Assembly (NCBI GenBank): GCA_945876015.1
Contig: CAMCNM010000049.1
Coordinates: forward strand, 1 to 10,091
Source of the DNA: Gemmatimonas phototrophica
GTDB taxonomy: Bacteria; Gemmatimonadota; Gemmatimonadetes; Longimicrobiales; Gaopeijiaceae
Reading direction: 5' to 3'
Length of the DNA stretch: 10,091 nucleotides
Part shown: positions 1 to 10,091 of the stretch, one piece after another
Numbering within the stretch: the stretch's first letter is position 1
Layout of the letters: the number at the start of each line of letters is the position of its first letter
The notes under the pieces: generated by a model
What the model was told of the DNA's origin: nothing
The model's input: the letters and a program-made list of their open reading frames with translations, nothing else
The model's database searches: none
Program-made: the position numbers and the translations under genes

Positions 1-482
1 GACCACCCGCGCGAACGGCCCCTCGGTCAGCAGCGACAGCGCGATGCACCCGCTTCCGGTCCCGAGGTCGAGCGCGGAATAGTCCTCCCTTCCTCGGGAG
101 CGGACCCACTCCAGCACCACGTCCACCAGCACCTCGGTCTCGGGGCGCGGGATGAGCACGCGCCGATCGACCGCCAACTCCAGCTCGCGGAAGGCCGCCC
201 GTCCGATCACGTACTGGAGCGGCTCCCGCTTCGCGCGGCGCAGCAGCAGCGGCTTGAAGACCGCCAGCTCGCCCGCGTTCACCGGCCGGTCGAACTGCAG
301 ATAGAGCTGTAGCCGCGTCGTGCCGAGCGCGTGCGCCAGGAGGTGCTCGGCATCGAGGCGGCCGTGCTCGACCCCCTTCTCCGCCAGGTAGTCCGCGCTC
401 CAGAGGATCAGGCTCAAGACGGTCCACGGCCCCTCGGCTCGGCGGGCCGCGTCGCCTCCCGCGATGGCCCGCGCGGGCTCGC

Positions 483-486
<4 letters not shown>
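1..486 (-). CDS. prmC: Peptide chain release factor N5-glutamine methyltransferase (N-terminal part)
   Basis: PrmC uses S-adenosylmethionine to methylate the glutamine of the GGQ motif in release factors, which speeds peptide release. The first 162 codons are present and the gene runs off the left edge. Residues 22-90 look like the helical N-terminal domain that binds the release factor (ADYLAEKGV and [13 protein letters not shown] stretches). IPRPETE at 112-118 is a PrmC signature. [11 protein letters not shown] at 140-150 is SAM-binding motif I. The catalytic NPPY motif would lie outside the window. The GTG start at 486-484 overlaps the prfA stop (GTGA). No strong ribosome site precedes it, so translation is probably coupled to prfA, whose product is the substrate. 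The first 20 or so residues precede the usual family start and may be a variable extension. Family identity is secure. Confidence 0.95.
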
Positions 487-1577
<1,091 letters not shown>

Positions 1578-1617
1578 AGTTTCATACGATTGAGATCAGC
1601 CCGAGGCTCCAAGCGAA

Positions 1618-1645
1618 ACGGCCGGGAACGCGGGTCCCCGGCCGT
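1618..1645 (-). terminator. Hairpin between rpmE and prfA, probable weak intrinsic terminator
   Basis: On the minus-strand transcript, arms at 1645-1634 and 1629-1618 form a 12-bp GC-rich stem (one G-U pair) with a CCGC loop. It is followed by TTTCGCTT, a broken U-tract. It starts 30 bases after the rpmE stop. The poor U-tract suggests partial termination, letting some transcripts continue into prfA. An RNA-stabilising role is also possible. No clear separate prfA promoter is visible. Confidence 0.55.
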
Positions 1646-1674
1646 CGCATGTCCACCGGGTTCGCCCTGGGTGG

Positions 1675-1884
1675 TCAGCTCTTCGCCGCCGTCGTGTACC
1701 TACGCTTGTAGCGCTCGACCCGTCCGGCGGTGTCCACAAGGCGCTGCTTGCCCGTATAGAACGGATGGCAGACCGAGCAGATTTCGACGTGGATCTCGTC
1801 CTGAGTGGACAGCGTGTCGATGCGGTTCCCGCATGCGCACACGATGGTCGTCTTTTTGATCTCGGGATGGATGCCGGCCTTCAT
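1675..1884 (-). CDS. rpmE: 50S ribosomal protein L31 (bL31), zinc-binding form
   Basis: bL31 is a small protein of the large ribosomal subunit that helps bridge the subunits. The 69-residue product matches the family in length and sequence: MKAGIHPE at the N-terminus, CxC at C16/C18, CxxC at C36/C39, then HPFYTGKQR and [10 protein letters not shown]. The four cysteines mark the C-plus (zinc-binding) form; cysteine-less paralogues in other bacteria are induced when zinc is scarce, and none is visible here. The ATG start is preceded by a near-consensus AGGAGG. The gene follows the ferritin-like gene after a 130-base structured leader and precedes prfA, a common neighbour. Confidence 0.98.
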
Positions 1885-1888
1885 AACC

Positions 1889-1894
1889 CCTCCT
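1889..1894 (-). promoter_or_regulatory. Shine-Dalgarno sequence of rpmE
   Basis: AGGAGG on the minus strand, four bases before the ATG and part of a longer purine run (AGAGGAGGGG). It is the strongest ribosome site in the window, as expected for an abundant ribosomal protein. Confidence 0.85.
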
Positions 1895-1914
1895 CTGACA
1901 CGAAGCGGGCCTGG

Positions 1915-1984
1915 GGCCCCCTCTCTGGGGACCTCGCGCGTCGCCTTCGGCGACGCGGCCCGCCCGATTCCCCGTGACGGGGAA
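1915..1984 (-). promoter_or_regulatory. Three tandem hairpins in the rpmE 5' leader
   Basis: Three perfect or near-perfect inverted repeats lie in a row in the 130-base gap upstream of rpmE. In transcript order they are: 1984-1968 (7 bp, loop TCA), 1957-1937 (9 bp, CGCGTCGCC with loop GAA), and 1933-1915 (7 bp including one G-U, loop AGAGA). The last ends about 20 bases before the Shine-Dalgarno sequence. None is followed by a T-run, so they do not look like ordinary intrinsic terminators of the ferritin gene. In E. coli, L31 is known to repress its own mRNA through a leader; a similar role here is inference from position only. Confidence 0.5.
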
Positions 1985-1997
1985 CCATAGCCGGGGG

Positions 1998-2003
1998 AAT
2001 ATA
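1998..2003 (-). promoter_or_regulatory. Candidate -10 element (TATATT) for rpmE
   Basis: TATATT sits in the only AT-rich patch of this intergenic region, about 110 bases before the rpmE ATG and just upstream of the hairpins. The best -35 match at suitable spacing (CTGGAA, 18 bases upstream, inside the end of the ferritin gene) is weak. A start site near 1991 would put all three hairpins in the leader RNA. In such GC-rich DNA the AT-rich patch is suggestive but not proof. Confidence 0.3.
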
Positions 2004-2014
2004 AAGGCGATTTC

Positions 2015-2515
2015 TCAGGTCTTCCAGTTGGTGAGGATGCGGTCGATCTCCTCGGCGTGGTGGGTCTCGTCCACGATCAGGTCCTCCAGACGGACCTTGA
2101 GCGCCACCTCCCCGAGGGCCGCGGCCTGCTCCGCCCGCTCCGTGTAACGCCGGACGGTGTCCCGCTCGGCCTTGAGGGCGATCTCGAGCATGCGGTGGTT
2201 GTCGGTCGTGATCTGGACCGGGGCGGGACCGGTGATGGGGGTCCCCCCGAAGGCGACGATCTTATCCGCCAGGAACATGGCGTGGGCCAACTCGTCCGGG
2301 ATCTCGGACTCGAAGAACTGCCTCAGCTCCTGCCGATAGGGTCCGCTGCACATGGACGCGAACAGCCGATAGCTGATGATCGCGTTGAACTCCCAGGAAA
2401 GGTCTTCGTTGAGTCCGGCGATGAGCTCGCGCACGTCGCCTTTCGGCTTGCCGTTTCCCGACTCGGCCTCGCGGGCCTCGTTCCGCTCCTTCTCCTTCCT
2501 CGCGCCCTTGCCCAT
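2015..2515 (-). CDS. Bacterioferritin-like diiron ferritin-family protein
   Basis: This is a 166-residue four-helix-bundle protein of the ferritin-like superfamily, probably a cytoplasmic iron oxidation/storage or oxidative-stress protein. Candidate diiron ligands are E42, E75, H78, E117, E150 and H153. Their spacing (33, 3, 39, 33, 3) almost exactly matches E. coli bacterioferritin E18, E51, H54, E94, E127, H130. Bacterioferritin's heme-ligand methionine directly follows the second glutamate; here that position is leucine (L76), so heme binding by that ligand is not expected. A highly charged, low-complexity extension of about 27 residues ([19 protein letters not shown]) precedes helix A. 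The ATG at 2515 was chosen over an in-frame GTG at 2530 because GAGAGG lies seven bases before the ATG. The gene lies between lnt and rpmE with no functional link apparent. Whether it forms a 24-mer cage cannot be told. Confidence 0.88.
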
Positions 2516-2522
2516 GGTGCAG

Positions 2523-2528
2523 CCTCTC
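2523..2528 (-). promoter_or_regulatory. Shine-Dalgarno sequence of the ferritin-like gene
   Basis: GAGAGG on the minus strand, seven bases before the ATG at 2515. It decides the start: the in-frame GTG at 2530 has no comparable site upstream. Confidence 0.7.
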
Positions 2529-2529
2529 A

Positions 2530-2558
2530 CTCGGATTTGATGGATACGAATCTCCGAG
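2530..2558 (-). repeat. Imperfect inverted repeat between lnt and the ferritin-like gene
   Basis: CTCGGA and TCCGAG arms (2558-2553 and 2535-2530) enclose 17 bases in the 48-base gap. The 6-bp stem lies immediately upstream of the ferritin Shine-Dalgarno sequence. There is no T-run after it, so it is a poor terminator. It could be chance, or a weak structure near the ribosome site. No convincing promoter is visible in the gap. Confidence 0.25.
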
Positions 2559-2563
2559 CCGGG

Positions 2564-4117
2564 TCACATGGAAGAGTCGTGCCTCCGGCGGGGGATCGTC
2601 AGGACGAGGAGGGCGACCAGGCACATGGCCGCGACGGGGCCGGTCACGTCGCCGGTGCGCACGAACAAGGTCGGGACGGGCGCCTCCGGAACGACTCCGG
2701 CGGCCGCGGTCTCCGACGGCCAGGCGGCGCGGCTCAGCTCAAGCCCGCTGGGACCGATCAGGGCAGCCGGTCCCCCGTTGGACGATCGCACCGCGCTGGT
2801 CCGGGTCTCGACGGCCCGGACGGTCAGATGGGCCATCTGCTGCGCGATCCCGGCGGAGCGAGCCCCGCTCCCGCCGCCGAACCAGGCGTCGCTCGTGAGC
2901 GCAACCAGCGTGTTGGCGCCGTTCCGCACCAGCCGGCGGGCGTCGGCGCCGAACGCGACCTCGTAGCAGATGAGGACGCCGGCCCGGAGCGGGCCGGCGA
3001 GCGCCACGGGAAAGCCCTCGCCCGCGTCGTACCCTCCCGCCTCCACGGGCGCGAGCCAGGGCGCATGTACGGCCGACGTCCGCTCGACCCCGGGGACCAG
3101 GCGGCGCTTGTCGGCGCGGAACGCGCCGATCCCGTCCGCTCCGATCAGCATCGCCGAGTTGAACGCGCGCGCATCATCGCCGCCGAGCGCTCCCACCAGG
3201 ATCGGCGCTCCGATCCGCTCCGACTGCACGCGCAGGCGCTCGACGAGCGCGTTGCCTGCGGGTGTGTTCGGGTCGAGCGCGAGCACCATCTCGGGCAGCA
3301 CGGCGAGATCGGTGGAGCCCGGTGCCACGCTGGCCAGCGCGCGCTCGGCCGCGGCCACGGAGGTCCGTGCCCATGCGGGATCGGTCGCCGAGGGCGGCAC
3401 GTCGAGCGCGAGCGCGGTGACCCGGCCGACGGGCATGGACGCCGCGAACCCGTCGAGGCGCGCCGCGCGCATGTAGCCCCACCACACCGGAGCGAACGCG
3501 AGAACGAGTGCGCAGGCCCACAACCCCACCGCGCGAAGCGCGCGCGCGGGCGCGGTATCCAGCGCCTCCGCTACCAGCCCGCTCACCAGCGCGAGCCACG
3601 CGGTGACGCCACCGATTCCCACCAGCTCGGCTACGCCAAGCGTCGCGGGCCAGCGAGCCAGGCCCAGACCGAGGGGCGTCCACGGGAACGCCAACCCGAA
3701 CGGCAGGTGCGCGAGCGCCCATTCGAGCCCCACCCACGCGAACGGCAGCGCGAACGCCGGCGGCAGCCCGTTCGGTCCCGCCGTCAGACGGTGCGTCGCC
3801 CACGCCGCGACGCCGGTGAGCCCGGCCAGGACCGCCAGCACCGCGGCGAACGCGACCCACCCCGTCGCCGGCCCCGCCACCGCGCCAAGCGTGAACGGCA
3901 ACCAGCGGAGCCCCCACGCGTGCTGCAGCGCGCCCGCCACCATGCCCGCGCCGACCGCCGCGAACGCGCCGCGCGGGTCGTCCGGCAGCCGACGCAGGAG
4001 GATCGCGAGGGGAACGAGCGCAATGAATGGAAGAATGGGCGAAGGCGCGGGCGGAGTGCTCGCCGCGAGCAGGAGCCCAGACGCGACAGGAAGCGCGCTC
4101 TTCGCGCGCTCGTTCAC
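2564..4117 (-). CDS. lnt: Apolipoprotein N-acyltransferase
   Basis: Lnt moves an acyl chain from a phospholipid to the free amino group of the N-terminal diacylglyceryl-cysteine of lipoproteins, completing their maturation in the inner membrane. The product is 517 residues (E. coli Lnt has 512). Several hydrophobic segments in residues 8-210 form the membrane part, with family-like stretches such as WGLRWLPF and GLAFPWTPLG. The periplasmic nitrilase-type domain covers about 230-480. The catalytic triad is E276 (VLPEM), K337 (ADKRRLVPG) and C384 (LICYEVAF, with E386). SDAWFG and RAVETR are further conserved motifs. A last membrane helix lies at about 492-508. The GTG start at 4117-4115 overlaps the upstream Lnb-family stop (GTGA), with GGAG five bases before it. 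An open frame continues far upstream but overlaps the Lnb gene and is a GC artefact. All catalytic residues are present, so it is probably active. Confidence 0.95.
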   Translation of the reverse strand: MNERAKSALPVASGLLLAASTPPAPSPILPFIALVPLAILLRRLPDDPRGAFAAVGAGMVAGALQHAWGLRWLPFTLGAVAGPATGWVAFAAVLAVLAGLTGVAAWATHRLTAGPNGLPPAFALPFAWVGLEWALAHLPFGLAFPWTPLGLGLARWPATLGVAELVGIGGVTAWLALVSGLVAEALDTAPARALRAVGLWACALVLAFAPVWWGYMRAARLDGFAASMPVGRVTALALDVPPSATDPAWARTSVAAAERALASVAPGSTDLAVLPEMVLALDPNTPAGNALVERLRVQSERIGAPILVGALGGDDARAFNSAMLIGADGIGAFRADKRRLVPGVERTSAVHAPWLAPVEAGGYDAGEGFPVALAGPLRAGVLICYEVAFGADARRLVRNGANTLVALTSDAWFGGGSGARSAGIAQQMAHLTVRAVETRTSAVRSSNGGPAALIGPSGLELSRAAWPSETAAAGVVPEAPVPTLFVRTGDVTGPVAAMCLVALLVLTIPRRRHDSSM

Positions 4118-5391
4118 GCCGGCTCCAAGCTCCGCGCCGAGCGGCGCAACCGGACGAGCGCGAGCAGAACCCCGAGGTTGGCGGGCACGGTCAGGCCGAG
4201 GATCTCGCCGTTCTGCTGGTCCAGCGCGTTCACGAAGTTCAGAACGAGGCCGAGCGCGGAAAGCCCGGCCACGACAGCGGCCAACCGGTAGAGCCGCCGT
4301 CCGGGCACGGGGCGGATGAGCACCGGCAGGGCGAGCACCCCGACCGCGAGCGACAGCGGATTCAGCTGGAGCAGATTCGCGTTCGGGTACCAGAACACGT
4401 GGTCGGTGAAGAGCCAGGATCCGAGCAGAACCACGCCCGCGAGACCCGCCACGACGCTCCATCCCGCGACGAGCGCCACCATCGGGACCCGCGCCCAGCC
4501 GGAGGGATGCGCGAGCAGGAACAGGAGGAGCGCGAGGGCGAGTCCCGGCACGAGGTACCAGCGGAGATGACTCGGGACGGACGTCGCTTCGGGCGGCCCC
4601 ATCGTGCGGTACACCTCGCGTTCGCTCATCACGAGCGACATCTCGCCGCCGAGACCGTCCGGCACGCGCACCTCGCGAATCCCTTCCATCAGCTTGATGG
4701 GGAGGAACGCCTCCCTCCACCGGTCGATCTCGCGGTCCGCCTTGCTGGCGAGGACCACCTGGATGCCCGTGTACATCGTCGGCATGGGCTGGAGCAGCCG
4801 GCGGGTGTGGAACCGGTAGCTCGTCCCCGTGGGCACGCCCTCGAGAGCCGTGCGCACCCGACCGTCCAGGACTTGGTCCAGCGCGTCACGCACGCGCGTC
4901 GAGCAGTTGTCCTGATAGTAGTCGTACCGATAGTACATGTTCTCGGGGAGCGCGTTGAGCGCGAGCGCGGCCTGCAGCTCGAGCTTCTGGTCCGTCGTGA
5001 GCGCCAGCTCCTGCACGAAGATCGACCGGTCGGCCGCGACGTAGGAGTCGATCATCGCCTGGACCCTGAACGGCGCCATCCAATACATCATCGTTCCGCG
5101 CAGCAGCCGGCCGAGGAAGCCCTCCTGGTCGAAGCTGAACATCCCCCAGTTGTACGCGAGGTCGGTTCCCGCCTGGGGATCGTGGATCCAGAGCGCGTTG
5201 TGGCCGAAGCGCTCCCACACCTGGGTACCTGGCCCGAACGTGACGAGGAAGACCTGGAGCGGAGCTGGAGCGAGACTGTCGGCGGTCGCGGCGGGTGGCG
5301 GAGCGGGTGCGGCTTGCTGGACGGGTGGCGCGGCGGCACACAGGAGCAGGATCAGGCCCGCGGGCAGGGGCCATCTAGACGGACGGGTCAG
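4114..5391 (-). CDS. Lnb/DUF4105-family protein, candidate second lipoprotein N-acyltransferase
   Basis: The family (Lnb N-terminal periplasmic domain plus a five-helix membrane domain) includes the Bacteroides lipoprotein N-acyltransferase Lnb, which does the job of Lnt in bacteria lacking Lnt. Read from the CTG at 5391-5389, the product has 425 residues. Residues 1-25 are a signal peptide (MTRPSRW, then a Leu/Ala-rich core). The periplasmic domain spans about 46-270, with ERFGHNAL (H64) and YDYYQDNCSTRVRD (C163), a His/Cys pair suggesting a papain-like thiol enzyme. Five hydrophobic helices follow at about 279-295, 303-327, 341-359, 368-387 and 397-414. A conserved-looking membrane motif TDHVFWYPNANLLQLNPLSL covers the loop into helix 3. 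The CTG overlaps the upstream oxidoreductase stop (CTGA) and has GAGG seven bases before it. The nearest standard start (GTG at 5220) would remove the signal peptide and the first strand. LLLC in the signal is not a good lipobox. Family membership is firm; the acyltransferase role is inferred. Confidence 0.85.
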   Translation of the reverse strand: MTRPSRWPLPAGLILLLCAAAPPVQQAAPAPPPAATADSLAPAPLQVFLVTFGPGTQVWERFGHNALWIHDPQAGTDLAYNWGMFSFDQEGFLGRLLRGTMMYWMAPFRVQAMIDSYVAADRSIFVQELALTTDQKLELQAALALNALPENMYYRYDYYQDNCSTRVRDALDQVLDGRVRTALEGVPTGTSYRFHTRRLLQPMPTMYTGIQVVLASKADREIDRWREAFLPIKLMEGIREVRVPDGLGGEMSLVMSEREVYRTMGPPEATSVPSHLRWYLVPGLALALLLFLLAHPSGWARVPMVALVAGWSVVAGLAGVVLLGSWLFTDHVFWYPNANLLQLNPLSLAVGVLALPVLIRPVPGRRLYRLAAVVAGLSALGLVLNFVNALDQQNGEILGLTVPANLGVLLALVRLRRSARSLEPA

Positions 5392-6404
5392 ACGTCAACC
5401 TCACGACCCTTGGCGGCGGAGCGGTAGGCGGCTGCGATCACCTTCATCAGCGCGTACTGCTCCTGCGGGAGCGGGACGCCGCGCTCGCCCGCGATGGCGC
5501 GGATGTAGAGGTCCAGCTCCTTCCGATAGGCGGCGTGATACGGGTTCTCGGCCGCGCGCGGCAGGGACTGCTGCGGCGTGGCGTCGAGCGGCCGTCCGCC
5601 CAGCTGCTTGAAGACCTGGAGCGGCGGGAGCGAGCCCGATCCCTCGCTGCCCATGACGCGGAAGAACTGGCGATCCTCGTTGCCGAAGAAGCTCCAGCTC
5701 ACCTCGACCGTGATCACCAGCCCCTTCGCCGTGGTCGCCATCACCAGGGCGGCGTCCTCCACCTCGTACGCCCCGCGCGCGAGAACCGCGCTGACTCGCT
5801 TGATGGGCGGATAGCCGATCATGTAGAGGCACAGGTCGAGGGCCGGAACGCCCAGATCCATCAGCGCGCCGCCGCCGGAGAGCGCTTTGTTCTGGCGCCA
5901 GGTCGGCCGGTTCAGGTGCAGCTTCCGGTTGAGCCAGCTGCCGCGCACCTGGTAGACCTGGCCCAGCTCGCCGCCCGCCACGAACGACGCGAGCGCCGCG
6001 GCGTCGGGCCGGTAGCGGTGGCTCATGCCCGCCATCAGCACGCGCCCGGCTTTGCGCGCGGTCTTGAGCAGACGGTCCACGCCGCGCGCGGTCAGCGCGA
6101 GCGGCCGCTCGACCAGCACATGCTTGCCGGCCCGGAGCGCGGCCATCGCCTGCTCTTCGTGCAGGTGGCTCGGGGTCGAGATCACCACGCCGTCCACGAG
6201 ATCGCCCTCGAGCAACTGCTGATCGCTCACCACCCGTTTCACGCCGAAGCGCGCCGCGATCGCCTTGGCCTTGGGCACGTCCGCGTCCGAGACGGCGACC
6301 ACCTCCACGTCGGGGCGGCCGGTCAGGATCGGCATATGCACGATCTGATTGACGGCGCCCGTGCCGAGCACGCCGAGCCGGACGGGGCGGCGCGGGTCGG
6401 TCAT
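5388..6404 (-). CDS. Gfo/Idh/MocA-family oxidoreductase
   Basis: These are NAD(P)-dependent dehydrogenases, mostly acting on sugars, sugar nucleotides or inositols; the substrate here is unknown. The 338-residue product has the N-terminal Rossmann fold (RLGVLGTGAVNQ, residues 9-20) and acidic SDAD at 39-42 ending the second strand, which favours NAD over NADP. It also has the STPSHLHEEQA and GKHVLVERP stretches and a C-terminal Gfo/MocA domain. Two usual signature residues differ: the EKP motif reads E99-R100-P101, and the histidine usually found in the DLGVHALD-type motif is proline (D183-L-G-V-P187-A-L-D190). It may use other residues or have altered activity. The ATG at 6404 overlaps the upstream stop (ATGA) with GAGGAG eight bases before it. 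The open frame extending further upstream overlaps the barrel gene and was discarded. Confidence 0.9.
   Translation of the reverse strand: MTDPRRPVRLGVLGTGAVNQIVHMPILTGRPDVEVVAVSDADVPKAKAIAARFGVKRVVSDQQLLEGDLVDGVVISTPSHLHEEQAMAALRAGKHVLVERPLALTARGVDRLLKTARKAGRVLMAGMSHRYRPDAAALASFVAGGELGQVYQVRGSWLNRKLHLNRPTWRQNKALSGGGALMDLGVPALDLCLYMIGYPPIKRVSAVLARGAYEVEDAALVMATTAKGLVITVEVSWSFFGNEDRQFFRVMGSEGSGSLPPLQVFKQLGGRPLDATPQQSLPRAAENPYHAAYRKELDLYIRAIAGERGVPLPQEQYALMKVIAAAYRSAAKGREVDV
5399..5402 (-). promoter_or_regulatory. Shine-Dalgarno sequence supporting the CTG start of the Lnb-family gene
   Basis: GAGG on the minus strand lies seven bases before the CTG at 5391, inside the last codons of the oxidoreductase gene. 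No ATG, GTG or TTG exists in this frame between the upstream stop and the GTG at 5220. This site and the signal peptide are the main reasons to accept a CTG start. Confidence 0.5.
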
Positions 6405-7072
6405 CGCTGACGCTCCTCGCCCGTAGCCGGGCCGCCGAACTGGATCTGCAGCCCGCCCCGCAGGGCGGAATAACGGATGTCCTCGAGCAGCTCGAGCCGC
6501 CCGGTGCCGTAGAGCCGGATGTGGCGATTCACCGGGTATTCGAGCCCCGTCTGGAGGGCCAGTCCCGCCGAAATGGAGTCCAGGAGATCCTCGATGAACG
6601 TGTCCGCGATCGCGGCGCCGTCCCCGTTCAGGAAATGGACCGACGCCCCCGCTCCCAGGAAAGTGAGGAAACCGAGCGGGACCCGCCACACCACGTGCGC
6701 ATCGAGCGCCACGTTCACGTCCGACCAGTCGATCGTGCCCAGGTCTACGCCCGGCGAGGGGACCCCTTGCTGGCGCGCGATCAAGCTGTCCACGCGGTTC
6801 TCGAGCTGGGCTACTTCCGACCCCTTCATGCGCGACGACCAGTACGTCACCGATGGCGTCAGGCGCAGCCCGGGTCCCAGATATCCTAGGTCCATGCGCA
6901 CGCCGTACGACGGCGCCGGCTGGATCTTGTCAGGCCAGATGTAGCCCGCCTCGAGCCCGAAGCCACGGAACGAGAAGTTCTCGTAGTCGAAGTCCGCGAG
7001 GCTCTGGGCGCGCGCCGGCGCAGGCGCGGCGAGCGCCGCGGCCGTCAGCAGGAGCAGCGCGGGGATCCTCAT
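6401..7072 (-). CDS. Secreted outer-membrane-barrel-like protein of unknown function
   Basis: I do not recognise a named family. The 223-residue product begins with a clear Sec signal peptide (MRIPALLLLTAAALAAP) and a likely cleavage after ARA, before Q23. The mature part has alternating polar/hydrophobic stretches with many Gly, Tyr and Phe residues (GFGLEAGYIW, YGVRMDLGYLGPGLRLTPSVTYW, LALQTGLEYPV, RLYGTGRLELLE, ALRGGLQIQFGG). This suggests a small beta-barrel of about eight strands. An acidic, helix-like insert (about 80-110, SEVAQLENRVDSLIARQQ) may be a loop. It does not end with the terminal aromatic residue common in such barrels; about ten polar residues (GPATGEERQR) follow the last strand. 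The ATG comes one base after the hemL stop (TGACATG), and its own stop overlaps the oxidoreductase start. Being in an operon with lipoprotein acyltransferases fits an envelope role but does not define it. Confidence 0.75.
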   Translation of the reverse strand: MRIPALLLLTAAALAAPAPARAQSLADFDYENFSFRGFGLEAGYIWPDKIQPAPSYGVRMDLGYLGPGLRLTPSVTYWSSRMKGSEVAQLENRVDSLIARQQGVPSPGVDLGTIDWSDVNVALDAHVVWRVPLGFLTFLGAGASVHFLNGDGAAIADTFIEDLLDSISAGLALQTGLEYPVNRHIRLYGTGRLELLEDIRYSALRGGLQIQFGGPATGEERQR

Positions 7073-7073
7073 G

Positions 7074-8354
7074 TCAGCCCCGCGCCGCCACGGAAGCCGC
7101 CTCGGCCGCGGCGGCGAGCGTGAACGACACTTCCGCATCCCCGTGCGCCGTCGAGACGAACCCCGCCTCGAACGCGGACGGTGCCAGGAAGACCCCGCGC
7201 TCGAGCATCGCGCGATGGAAGCGCCCGAACGCCTTCGTGTCGGAGGTCTTGGCTTCCTCGTAGGAGCGGGGCGCGCCCTCCCGGAAGAACACGCCGAACA
7301 TCGAGCCCACCGCGGCGCCCACCGCGGGGATGCCCGCGTCGCGCGCGGCGGAGGCGATCCCGTCGGCGACTTTCTTCGCCACCTGCTCGAGACGCATGTA
7401 CGGATCGTTCTTCTCGAGCCATTCGAGCTGGGCGTTCCCCGCGGCGGTAGCGAGCGGATTGCCCGAAAGCGTGCCCGCCTGGTAGACCGGCCCCGCGGGC
7501 GCCACCCGCTCCATCAGATCGCGCCGACCGCCGTACGCGCCGACCGGCAGCCCGCCGCCGATCACCTTGCCCAGCGTCGTCAGGTCGGGCGTGATGCCGA
7601 AGCGGGCCTGCGCGCCGCCGAGGGCGACGCGGAAGCCGGTCATCACCTCGTCGAACACGAGCAGCGCGCCGTGGCGATGCGTGATGTCGCGGAGCCCCTG
7701 CAGAAAGCCGGGCATCGGCTCGATCAAACCGGAGTTGCCGATCACCGGCTCGACGAACACGGCGGCGATCTGGTCACCCTGCCGCTTGAAGACGGCCTCG
7801 ACCGCGTCGAGGTCGTTGAACGGCGCCACGCCGGTGTCGCCCGCGGCGCCCTTGCTCACCCCGGGCGAGTCGGGCAATCCGAGCGTGGCGACGCCGCTCC
7901 CCGCGGACACCAGGAAGGCGTCGCCGTGCCCGTGGTAGCAGCCAGTGAACTTGAGCATCCCCGCGCGACCGGTGGCGGCGCGCGCCACGCGCAAAGCGCT
8001 GATGGTCGCCTCGGTCCCGCTGTTCACCAGACGTACCATCTCGATCGAGGGCATCAACCGGACGATGCGCTCCGCGAGCTCGACCTCTCCCTCGGTGGGG
8101 GTGCCGTAGCTCGTGCCGCGGGCCAGCTGCGCGGCCAACGCCTCGACCACCACGCGCGGCGCGTGGCCCAGGATGAGCGGACCCCACGAGAGCACGTAGT
8201 CCACGTAGCGCCGCCCTTCGGTATCCCACAGATACGCCCCCTCGCCGCGCGCGACGAAGAACGGCGTCGAGCCCACGCCGCGGAACGAGCGCACCGGGGA
8301 GTTCACGCCCCCAGGAATCACCGCTAGCGCGCGACTCCAGAGATCGGCGCTCAC
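7074..8354 (-). CDS. hemL: Glutamate-1-semialdehyde 2,1-aminomutase
   Basis: HemL is a PLP enzyme that converts glutamate-1-semialdehyde to 5-aminolevulinate, the first committed precursor of heme and other tetrapyrroles in the C5 pathway. The 426-residue product is full length. Signatures include IPGGVNSPVRSF (13-24), SWGPLILGH (57-64), NSGTEA (111-116, phosphate binding), CYHGHGD (139-145), DEVMTGFR (235-242, with D235 for the PLP ring nitrogen) and the PLP lysine K263 in TTLGKVIGGGLPVGAYGG. The GTG start at 8354-8352 overlaps the rimO stop (GTGA) and gives the standard N-terminus. An open frame upstream of it overlaps rimO and was discarded. No other tetrapyrrole gene is in the window. Confidence 0.97.
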   Translation of the reverse strand: MSADLWSRALAVIPGGVNSPVRSFRGVGSTPFFVARGEGAYLWDTEGRRYVDYVLSWGPLILGHAPRVVVEALAAQLARGTSYGTPTEGEVELAERIVRLMPSIEMVRLVNSGTEATISALRVARAATGRAGMLKFTGCYHGHGDAFLVSAGSGVATLGLPDSPGVSKGAAGDTGVAPFNDLDAVEAVFKRQGDQIAAVFVEPVIGNSGLIEPMPGFLQGLRDITHRHGALLVFDEVMTGFRVALGGAQARFGITPDLTTLGKVIGGGLPVGAYGGRRDLMERVAPAGPVYQAGTLSGNPLATAAGNAQLEWLEKNDPYMRLEQVAKKVADGIASAARDAGIPAVGAAVGSMFGVFFREGAPRSYEEAKTSDTKAFGRFHRAMLERGVFLAPSAFEAGFVSTAHGDAEVSFTLAAAAEAASVAARG

Positions 8355-9832
8355 GCCACCACCCGTCCGGTCAGGTCGTGGTCTCCCGCGTCTACGATCT
8401 CGACCTGGACGAAGTCGCCCGGGCGGACGCCTTCGGCGCCCTCGGGCACGATCCACGTCGCGCCGTCCACGTCGATCGCCTGCCCGGTGGTGTGCGCCAA
8501 CAGCGCGAACTCGGGCTCGTCATCGAGGACCCGGTCCACCAGGGCCGTCTGTACCGCGCCGACCATCTCGAGATTCTTCTCGAGCGAGATCATGCGCTGC
8601 ACGTCGAGCAGCTCCTCGAGCCGCTCGCGCCGGACCGTCTCGGGCACCTGATCGGCCATCAGCGCGGCCGGGGTGTCGTCCTCGGGGGAATACGCGAACG
8701 CGCCGACCCGCTCGAAGCGGATCTCCTCGAGCAGGTCGAGCATGGTGCGGAAGTCCTCGTCGGTCTCGCCGGGGAAACCCACGATCACGGTGGTCCGGAG
8801 CGTCAGGCCGGGGATCGCGTCCCGTAGCCAGCCCACGCGCTCGCGGATCGTGTGCTGCCGCTCGGGGCGGCGCATCGCGGCCAGGATCCGGTCGCTGCCG
8901 TGCTGGAGCGGCATGTCGAGGTAGGGCAGAATGCGCGAGCCCTGGGTGCGCGACGAGGCCTTCGCGAGCAGCTCCACCATGGGCTGCGTGATGCCCGAGG
9001 GATACATGTAGAACAGGCGGTACCAGTCGATCCCGGTGCGCTCGAGCAGCGCTTCGAGCAGATCGGCGAGCAGCGCCGCGCCCGGCTCCTTGCGGCGCTG
9101 GTCGCGGCCGTACCAGGTCGTGTCCTGGCTGACGATGTTGATCTCGCGCACGCCCTGGCGCGCCATCGCGGCGGCCTCGCGCACCAGATCCTCCACCGGA
9201 GCGGAGCGGTGCAACCCGCGCATGAGCGGGATCGCGCAGAATGCGCAGGTGTGGTCGCACCCCTCGCTGATCTTGAGGAACGAGGTGTGCTTGGTCTCGG
9301 TCGAGAGCACGCGGAGCGGCTGCTCCATGAGCGGCACGGACGTCTCGGGAAGGAGCCCGCGGCTCCGCAGCTCGGGCACCAGGGTCGAGAGGCCGGTTAG
9401 CCCGAGGTAGAGATCGACCTCCGGGATCTCCCGCTCGAGCTCCTCCTGATAACGCTGCACCATGCAGCCCACCGCGACCACCGCGCGGATCTCGCCCCGC
9501 TCCTTCATCCCGCACGCCTGGAGGATCGTCTCGATCGACTCCTCCTTCGCCGCCTGGATGAACCCGCAGGTGTTGATCACGACCACGTCAGCGCCCTCGG
9601 GATCGCTCGACACGCGCGCGCCGTGCCCGATCAACGTCGCCATGATGCGCTCGGAGTCCACCGTGTTCTTGTCGCAGCCGAGCGTGACGAGCGCGATGCG
9701 CGGACCGCCGTACGGCCCGACCGGCTCGAGCTCGAGGCGCACCGCCTCGACGTCGCGGCTCACGCCGGGACGGATCGGATCGGGGGACAGAGGGAAGACG
9801 GGGAGGTCCCGTCGCCGCTCGGTGGTGCTCAC
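8351..9832 (-). CDS. rimO: Ribosomal protein S12 methylthiotransferase
   Basis: RimO is a radical-SAM enzyme with two iron-sulfur clusters that adds a methylthio group to a conserved aspartate of ribosomal protein S12. The predicted product has 493 residues. The N-terminal MTTase domain carries the cluster cysteines C53 (LGCDKNTVDSE), C89 (INTCGF) and C123 (VGCMVQRY). The radical-SAM motif CxxxCxxC is C192, C196, C199 (SEGCDHTCAFCAIP). A C-terminal TRAM domain follows from about residue 425 (IDVDGATWIV, VEIVDAGDHDLTGRVV). LGCDKNTVDSE points to RimO, since MiaB has a different sequence around the first cysteine. The GTG at 9832 was chosen because GAGG lies eight bases before it and it clears the lolA stop by 13 bases. 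It leaves about 45 residues (Pro- and Arg-rich) before the domain, longer than usual; a GTG further in is possible but has no ribosome site. Confidence 0.95.
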   Translation of the reverse strand: MSTTERRRDLPVFPLSPDPIRPGVSRDVEAVRLELEPVGPYGGPRIALVTLGCDKNTVDSERIMATLIGHGARVSSDPEGADVVVINTCGFIQAAKEESIETILQACGMKERGEIRAVVAVGCMVQRYQEELEREIPEVDLYLGLTGLSTLVPELRSRGLLPETSVPLMEQPLRVLSTETKHTSFLKISEGCDHTCAFCAIPLMRGLHRSAPVEDLVREAAAMARQGVREINIVSQDTTWYGRDQRRKEPGAALLADLLEALLERTGIDWYRLFYMYPSGITQPMVELLAKASSRTQGSRILPYLDMPLQHGSDRILAAMRRPERQHTIRERVGWLRDAIPGLTLRTTVIVGFPGETDEDFRTMLDLLEEIRFERVGAFAYSPEDDTPAALMADQVPETVRRERLEELLDVQRMISLEKNLEMVGAVQTALVDRVLDDEPEFALLAHTTGQAIDVDGATWIVPEGAEGVRPGDFVQVEIVDAGDHDLTGRVVA

Positions 9833-9840
9833 CGGAGCGG

Positions 9841-9844
9841 CCTC
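9841..9844 (-). promoter_or_regulatory. Shine-Dalgarno sequence of rimO
   Basis: GAGG on the minus strand, eight bases before the GTG at 9832 and just after the lolA stop. It supports this start over an in-frame ATG at 9895, which would overlap lolA by about 50 bases. Confidence 0.5.
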
Positions 9845-9845
9845 A

Positions 9846-10091
9846 TCACCGGCTGATGACCTGGGCGCCAGCGGGCGGGGTGAAGCGGAAGACATCCTCG
9901 GCCAGCTTCGGGTTGAGCTCGACCCTCCGCAGCCTGACCGTGCGCACCGAACCGTTCTCCTCTGTGATCTCGACTTTGCGCAGGAGCGAGTCGCCCGCGT
10001 CGATCCACAGCTTGGCGGTGCGATAGGAGGTCTTCTCGAGGGGCGTCAGCGCCACCTGGTGGACGGACTTCCCGTCGAGCGCCTGCCTCCC
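9846..10091 (-). CDS. lolA: LolA-type outer membrane lipoprotein carrier (C-terminal part)
   Basis: LolA is the periplasmic chaperone that carries mature lipoproteins from the LolCDE exporter to the outer membrane. Only the last 81 codons are present; the gene enters from the right edge. The visible part matches the LolA C-terminal half: VALTPLEKTSYRTAKLWID, then SLLRKVEITEENG, then VELNPKLAEDVFRFTPPAGAQVI, which ends the beta-sheet barrel. The gene stops 13 bases before rimO and is probably cotranscribed with it. Its link to the two lipoprotein acyltransferase genes downstream is functional. Because the N-terminal half is outside the window, a broader DUF4292/LolA-like protein cannot be excluded. 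Confidence 0.85.
   Translation of the reverse strand, partial: GRQALDGKSVHQVALTPLEKTSYRTAKLWIDAGDSLLRKVEITEENGSVRTVRLRRVELNPKLAEDVFRFTPPAGAQVISR

Follow-up and report, generated by a model that had tools for sequence, protein, structure and literature searches.

Why would a bacterium keep two unrelated enzymes for what may be the same last step of lipoprotein maturation, and keep them in a single overlapping gene pair? The question is raised by a contig of Gemmatimonas phototrophica (CAMCNM010000049.1, positions 1 to 10,091; the window, hereafter, is this whole stretch of 10,091 nucleotides), which belongs to a draft genome of 1.98 Mb in 276 contigs, 73% complete. An earlier note on this DNA had pointed to a gene of the Lnb family (DUF4105) whose end overlaps the start of lnt, the gene of apolipoprotein N-acyltransferase. 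Bacteroides is reported to be without Lnt. In the accessible part of the source, DUF4105 is reported as the N-acyltransferase of Bacteroides (via PMC12994826). Our answer, held with moderate confidence, is that the pair encodes two non-homologous N-acyltransferases with overlapping function, in which Lnb would have been set before a resident Lnt, both being still under selection. The elements of the pair are the following.

4114..5391, minus strand: Lnb-family protein (P0001, 425 amino acids from CTG), with a signal-like N-terminus, a periplasmic permuted NlpC/P60-type domain with H64 and C163, and five C-terminal helices
2564..4117, minus strand: lnt, apolipoprotein N-acyltransferase (517 amino acids from GTG), Glu-Lys-Cys triad intact
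4114..4117, minus strand: four-base GTGA overlap between the lnt start and the Lnb stop

The description of the first protein in the earlier note, with a signal peptide, a domain carrying H64 and C163, and five helices, was confirmed. The N-terminus is signal-like, the Lnb_N domain (PF13387) was found well above the Pfam cut-off (E 1.6e-17; 64.1 bits against 22.2), and the 5TMH_Lnb domain (PF25221) passed marginally (E 1.2e-5; 25.8 bits against 25.2). All 37 rows of the alignment (two of them identical) have H64 and C163, the His and Cys that are conserved in the permuted NlpC/P60 core. Furthermore, the NCBI equivalog model of Lnb, NF051878, aligns with the protein at E 2e-47 over profile positions 29 to 367 of 394, and all 34 homologues are matched by the Lnb model, with E values of 1e-5 or lower. 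In the predicted structure, five long C-terminal helices lie between residues 276 and 421, and the periplasmic domain has the permuted NlpC/P60 (YiiX/LRAT-like) fold, which fits YiiX, TseH and, weakly, H-REV107; a search of the solved structures by sequence with the Lnb profile gave weak, unrelated-looking matches alone (best E 0.026). Considering the His/Cys core and the role of DUF4105 in Bacteroides, it is possible to hypothesize a thioester-type N-acylation chemistry such as that of Lnt.

The second gene was confirmed as a complete lnt with its Glu-Lys-Cys triad, as had been claimed. The product passes the TIGR00546 equivalog cut-off (E 1.8e-56; 192 bits against 132.9), both LNT_N and CN_hydrolase exceed their Pfam cut-offs, the triad is invariant in 29 of 29 rows, and the equivalent of E343 (E. 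coli numbering) is present; the residue numbering of the translated frame, P0002, begins one codon before the GTG. The 24 best PDB matches of the predicted fold are all Lnt (best E 6.7e-23), with a TM-score of about 0.8 to the E. coli and P. aeruginosa structures, and in the models both proteins of the pair fit their families. According to the available part of PMC5500890, Lnt takes an acyl chain from a phospholipid, binds it as a thioester and then transfers it to the amino group of the lipoprotein; in E. coli, Y388A fails to rescue an Lnt-depleted strain, and Y388W is inactive yet forms the acyl-enzyme. The enzyme is essential in E. coli and is reported to be dispensable in some other bacteria (PMC11784454, in the part accessible).

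That two unrelated N-acyltransferase families are joined in one overlapping pair also held true. Lnb runs from 5391 to 4114 and lnt from 4117 to 2564, with the stop codon TGA (4116-4114) and the start codon GTG (4117-4115) sharing GTGA. This overlap of reading frames suggests coupled translation, and the two genes are therefore probably cotranscribed as well; a scan of the window for promoters and terminators found neither. At the other end, the Lnb frame contains no ATG, GTG or TTG upstream of a GTG at 5220, and the start is likely the CTG at 5391-5389, because this codon overlaps the stop of the preceding gene, gfo, in CTGA and opens a signal-like N-terminus. A sequence error near this start is possible. 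The window genome, complete to 73%, contains a single Lnb_N match and a single Lnt over the cut-off.

Having both enzymes had been considered redundant in appearance. Both are indeed present, but this view has to be qualified, their joint occurrence being common in the family of the window (f1), where 65 of the 94 carriers of either gene have both. Among 59 related genomes (the window's included), PF13387 was found in 53 and TIGR00546 over its cut-off in 28. The phylum was sampled with 395 evenly drawn Gemmatimonadota genomes, at thresholds of E 1e-10 for the Lnb profile (A1) and E 1e-25 for the Lnt profile (A2), the latter set to exclude other nitrilase-like proteins, so that weak true Lnts may be missed. 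In this sample Lnb occurs in 262 genomes and Lnt in 197: both in 80, Lnb only in 182, Lnt only in 117 and neither in 16 (Fisher p 3.7e-29, which ignores kinship). Avoidance between Lnb and Lnt is the rule in the phylum and f1 is the exception, since f1 comprises 65 genomes with both, 12 with Lnb only and 17 with Lnt only, whereas outside f1 the corresponding numbers are 15, 170 and 100. The same avoidance is seen within separate families, with 2, 40 and 35 genomes, in the same order, in f4, 3, 105 and 24 in f5, and 4, 6 and 18 in f7. Because most genomes without Lnt have Lnb (182 of the 198 in which no Lnt was found), Lnb can probably carry the N-acylation load alone.

Outside f1, no adjacency was found in the ten dual genomes, out of 15, for which positions are listed for both genes (G035, G051, G053, G102, G340, G160, G195, G396, G047 and G050); in G195 Lnb and Lnt are 1.7 Mb from each other, and in the others they lie on separate contigs. 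Three of seven further records with an Lnb homologue (titled Rhodanobacteraceae, Myxococcales and Spirochaetaceae) have an Lnt over the cut-off, and co-occurrence in a genome is therefore not unique to this phylum.

The position of the pair on the chromosome turned out to be shared. The window genes treated here are on the minus strand and are transcribed in the order LolA-like end, rimO, hemL-type aminotransferase, beta-barrel-like, gfo, Lnb, lnt, ferritin-like, prfA and prmC (rimO, hemL and prfA being names that we presume from Pfam domains). The neighbors are as follows.

5388..6404, minus strand: Gfo/Idh/MocA oxidoreductase (gfo), bordering the slot upstream, whose stop TGA overlaps the Lnb CTG
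483..1577, minus strand: prfA-type release factor, bordering the slot downstream
2015..2515, minus strand: ferritin-like protein, found between lnt and prfA in some slots
6401..7072, minus strand: outer-membrane beta-barrel-like protein (omp), within the conserved neighborhood; Pfam match below the cut-off
9849..10091, minus strand: LolA-like lipoprotein carrier, C-terminal part, cut by the window end; LolA over the cut-off, DUF2092 scoring higher

The order of the genes was established from 71 loci, made up of the window and 70 stretches (G162 appearing twice), and from 19 more stretches (G195 again). The arrangement in f1 and neighboring families is ftsK-lolA-rimO-(hemL)-omp-(gfo)-X-(ferritin)-prfA-prmC-ylbF-(CDP-alcohol transferase)-MIPS, single members being missing in some genomes or cut at contig ends; the names ftsK, ylbF, CDP-alcohol transferase, MIPS and tmk are presumed from the sequences of these genes. 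Position X is occupied by the Lnb-Lnt tandem in at least 15 loci, the window included, from eight genera of one family, and Lnb comes first in each of them (G000, G001, G002, G005, G006, G008, G016, G021, G030, G350, G399, G203, G389, G287 and G123); this is a lower bound, the order having been read in part of the f1 dual genomes. The adjacency is thus present in close relatives, and all 15 tandems keep H64, C163 and the Lnt triad; as the Lnb domains match and H64 and C163 do not vary, none of the outcomes named in the earlier note as refuting it was observed. The two genes mostly overlap or lie within some 50 bases of each other: 8 of the 15 loci allow an NTGA overlap, and the remaining seven have their nearest predicted lnt start at -17 to +51 bases relative to the Lnb stop.

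In other genomes the same position holds one enzyme or neither. X is Lnt alone in 18 of 18 loci with unlinked Lnt (L177-L194), as judged from a gfo or omp directly upstream, and Lnb alone in G004, G162 and G065, the last of another family and with 2.7 kb between Lnb and prfA; all 18 loci with unlinked Lnb are in other contexts, without any slot gene. Between kept borders, no recognizable Lnb or Lnt was found in nine genomes (G024, G031, G007, G191, G257, G103, G036, G037 and G298), and in G028 the downstream border alone is recognizable; these nine and G028 were picked as Lnb-bearing without a found Lnt, so that their Lnb reflects this choice and is not a result. Among the stretches of other families, 8 of the 10 Lnt genes are immediately preceded by gfo, and 6 of the 9 Lnb genes have it as a neighbor, one of these six in opposite orientation. 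Given these neighbors of gfo and the states of the slot, the same chromosomal place behind gfo takes either enzyme.

As for the history of the slot, a prfA+prmC+ylbF tree of 46 chosen genomes requires eight changes in Lnt presence and four in Lnb presence. The label of Lnb in the slot needs four changes on both trees (G062 and G385 being left out of the count on the prfA+prmC+ylbF tree), and one insertion event is therefore not demonstrated. Of the 18 slot Lnb proteins, 17 fall in one weakly bounded group of 30, together with 13 non-slot Lnbs of f1, that of G065 being placed elsewhere. Single and repeated insertion are both readings that stand. G016, with the tandem, and G162, with Lnb alone, are of one genus, which points to a loss of Lnt beside a retained Lnb. 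Separately, G067 (L325) has Lnb between prfA and gfo but pointing the other way from these two genes, which looks like an insertion or an inversion within the slot.

Both members of the pair appear to be still under purifying selection. In the genus of the window (G000 against G002), dN/dS is 0.25 for Lnb, 0.21 for Lnt and 0.11 for prfA, figures that are rough because dS is 0.94-1.33; some pairs with G162 or G172 gave no dS, and the Lnb comparison between G008 and G389 was disregarded on account of a second Lnb copy. This second Lnb of G389 (L156 5147-6418) is nearly identical to the Lnb of G022, with the same gene order, and looks like contamination of the G389 draft. Decay of one partner was considered and rejected: each of the 38 Lnb and 38 Lnt rows fits within a single open frame and, as far as it extends, retains H64/C163 or the triad. 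The frames were pre-cut at stops, so that the absence of stops alone is no test; G162 is counted twice among the Lnb rows, and the Lnb of G034 and the Lnt of G029 are cut short.

In dual genomes, Lnt has diverged at many positions that Lnt-only genomes conserve. At 80 reference columns, at least 90% conserved in 60 Lnt-only genomes, Lnt departs on average by 15.2% in 54 dual genomes versus 3.1% in the 60 Lnt-only ones, and the departure exceeds 10% in 30 of 53 dual versus 4 of 60 Lnt-only rows (counts that share ancestry). The window Lnt departs at 19 of the 80 columns (23.7%), and the window Lnb at 7.9% of the 63 columns that Lnb-only genomes conserve; the Lnb departures average 7.1% over 52 dual rows and 3.6% over 44 Lnb-only rows. 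Among the Lnt-only genomes of f1, 12 of 14 depart by 0-2.5%, the others being G141 (32.5%) and G033 (28.8%). Relative to prfA+prmC+ylbF, the rates of Lnt fall into two classes, one of 0.73-0.96 (three Lnt-only genomes at 0.80-0.91 and ten dual genomes) and one of 1.36-2.90 (17 dual genomes; 1.63 for the window and 1.60-1.63 for its genus). The triad is kept in the listed dual rows (that of G029 being cut), and the equivalents of E343, V339, N314 and R432 are invariant in 53 of 53. The residue that follows the catalytic Cys (Y388 in E. coli) behaves differently: all 60 Lnt-only genomes have Y or F there, whereas 9 of the 53 dual ones have I, N, S or W; the window Lnt has Y at this position and Ala at the Y333 equivalent. 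A test of Lnt divergence against Lnb presence with independent pairs on the Lnt tree was not significant (about 0.7 for and 0.1 against, of 9). We take it as a lead that Lnt may be freed or re-tuned where Lnb is present. As single observations, G033 (L225) and G141 (L224), of f1, combine a strongly divergent Lnt with no found Lnb, for which an assembly gap or a recent loss of Lnb are both possible; the Lnt of G017 (L182 5248-6762), a genome that also has Lnb, presents a Trp at the Y388 equivalent, as in the inactive, acyl-enzyme-forming Y388W of E. coli.

Taken together, the tandem looks like an enzyme replacement held at a halfway stage. Both predicted enzymes would serve the same last step of lipoprotein maturation; in Gemmatimonadota, Lnb and Lnt would be alternative occupants of one place behind gfo, and in f1 Lnb would have been placed ahead of the resident Lnt and overlapped with it. 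The proposal, already made in the earlier note, that the tandem is an intermediate in the replacement of one enzyme by the other is supported by the avoidance, the shared slot and the states of the slot; the activity of each protein, their coupling, the overlap of function in the cell and the order of events are what we infer from the sequences. Some results weigh against it. Lnb misses the NF051878 equivalog cut-off, with 161.9 bits against 550, and is therefore classed as an Lnb-family homologue and not as an equivalog; two Bacteroidota homologues are likewise under this cut-off. Both genes persist in the 65 dual genomes of f1, which is not as plain redundancy would predict. Finally, 16 genomes have neither gene, from incompleteness, thresholds or other routes, and the avoidance counts take no account of kinship.

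The divergence of Lnt could be read as a division of labor, with Lnb in charge of general N-acylation and Lnt moved to narrower substrates, or to another acyl donor or acceptor. The earlier note had suggested a split of substrates or acyl donors, and also a possible complex of the two proteins. The mean departures of 15.2% and 3.1%, the 23.7% of the window and the rate of its genus, 1.60-1.63 against 0.80-0.91 in the three Lnt-only genomes, would agree with this, as would the retention of the triad and of the E343, V339, N314 and R432 equivalents, the altered Y388 equivalent confined to Lnb-bearing genomes, and the precedent of AatD, a glycine-acylating Lnt homologue (PMC7943197, in the part accessible). 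However, the columns were chosen on Lnt-only rows, whose conformity is partly by construction, the independent-pair test is not significant, Lnt is slow in ten Lnb-bearing genomes and divergent in four Lnt-only ones (G141, G033, G063 and G059), and the window's own Lnt keeps Y388, so that we consider this reading unlikely, if worth keeping in view. Its fuller form is a settled two-enzyme system, in which Lnb would perform general N-acylation and Lnt, its catalytic machinery kept, would be re-tuned to another acceptor or acyl donor, giving two classes of N-acylated proteins; this we regard as rather doubtful. It is improbable, in our view, that the Lnb homologue catalyzes a different step (acyl trimming, a phospholipase reaction or acylation of another acceptor) as a pathway partner beside lnt. 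Its fold fits YiiX, TseH and weakly H-REV107, in a group that includes lipid hydrolases (PMC12994826, as far as the text is available), and the equivalog cut-off is missed; nevertheless, the Lnb model matches all the homologues, Lnb-only genomes make up 182 of 395, several families carry Lnb where others have Lnt, and an unrelated reaction would agree poorly with the avoidance and with the place that both enzymes share. Chance adjacency or an assembly artefact, for which the 73% completeness and the 276 contigs might speak, was rejected and can hardly be credited, the same order recurring in the 15 loci from eight genera, with the one-contig genomes G006 and G123 among them.

The halfway replacement can be set beside the known systems. 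With the Lnb of Bacteroides, the window protein shares both domains in the same order, the periplasmic His and Cys and a match along most of the NF051878 profile; it differs in scoring far below the equivalog cut-off and in lying beside lnt. With Lnt as defined by TIGR00546, the window Lnt shares domains, fold, triad and the E343 equivalent, but it deviates at 19 of 80 Lnt-only columns, including the Y333 equivalent. The repeated displacement of DUF4105 proteins by Lnt in three genomic contexts is already published (PMC12994826, PLoS Biol 2026, accessible in part), and the overlapping pair is a variant of this known replacement. In both cases one family takes the place of the other within the same genomic surroundings; here, however, the two are found together, in eight genera, and the available text of the displacement account makes no mention of such a pair. 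More generally, we found no co-resident overlapping Lnb-Lnt pair described in the accessible parts of the literature on DUF4105, Lnb, Lnt and the N-acyltransferases of Gemmatimonadota. AatD offers a precedent for a second enzyme, of the Lnt type, that acts on a new substrate beside an existing N-acyltransferase of the cell, but it is itself an Lnt homologue, encoded in a secretion cluster, whereas here the second enzyme is unrelated (PMC7943197, in its accessible part). The intermediate is, in our judgement, rarely to be seen when an unrelated enzyme takes the place of one that is essential in E. coli. One chromosomal place shows, among relatives, Lnt alone, both, Lnb alone and neither, and these states may serve as a natural experiment on the equivalence of Lnb and Lnt outside Bacteroides and on the Lnt residues freed by a second enzyme.

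Some minor features of the neighborhood and of the families may be added. A LolA-like gene is in the neighborhood of the pair, and Lgt and LspA genes are present in the genome; in relatives, the lolA-like gene is longer and in the same place as the cut copy of the window. Several relatives (L002-L019) have a second DUF4105-type protein, often a frame near 300 amino acids, with an Lnb_N score above that of the Lnb studied here. Moreover, the omp-like beta-barrel protein (window 6401-7072) is conserved near gfo and Lnt across the family.

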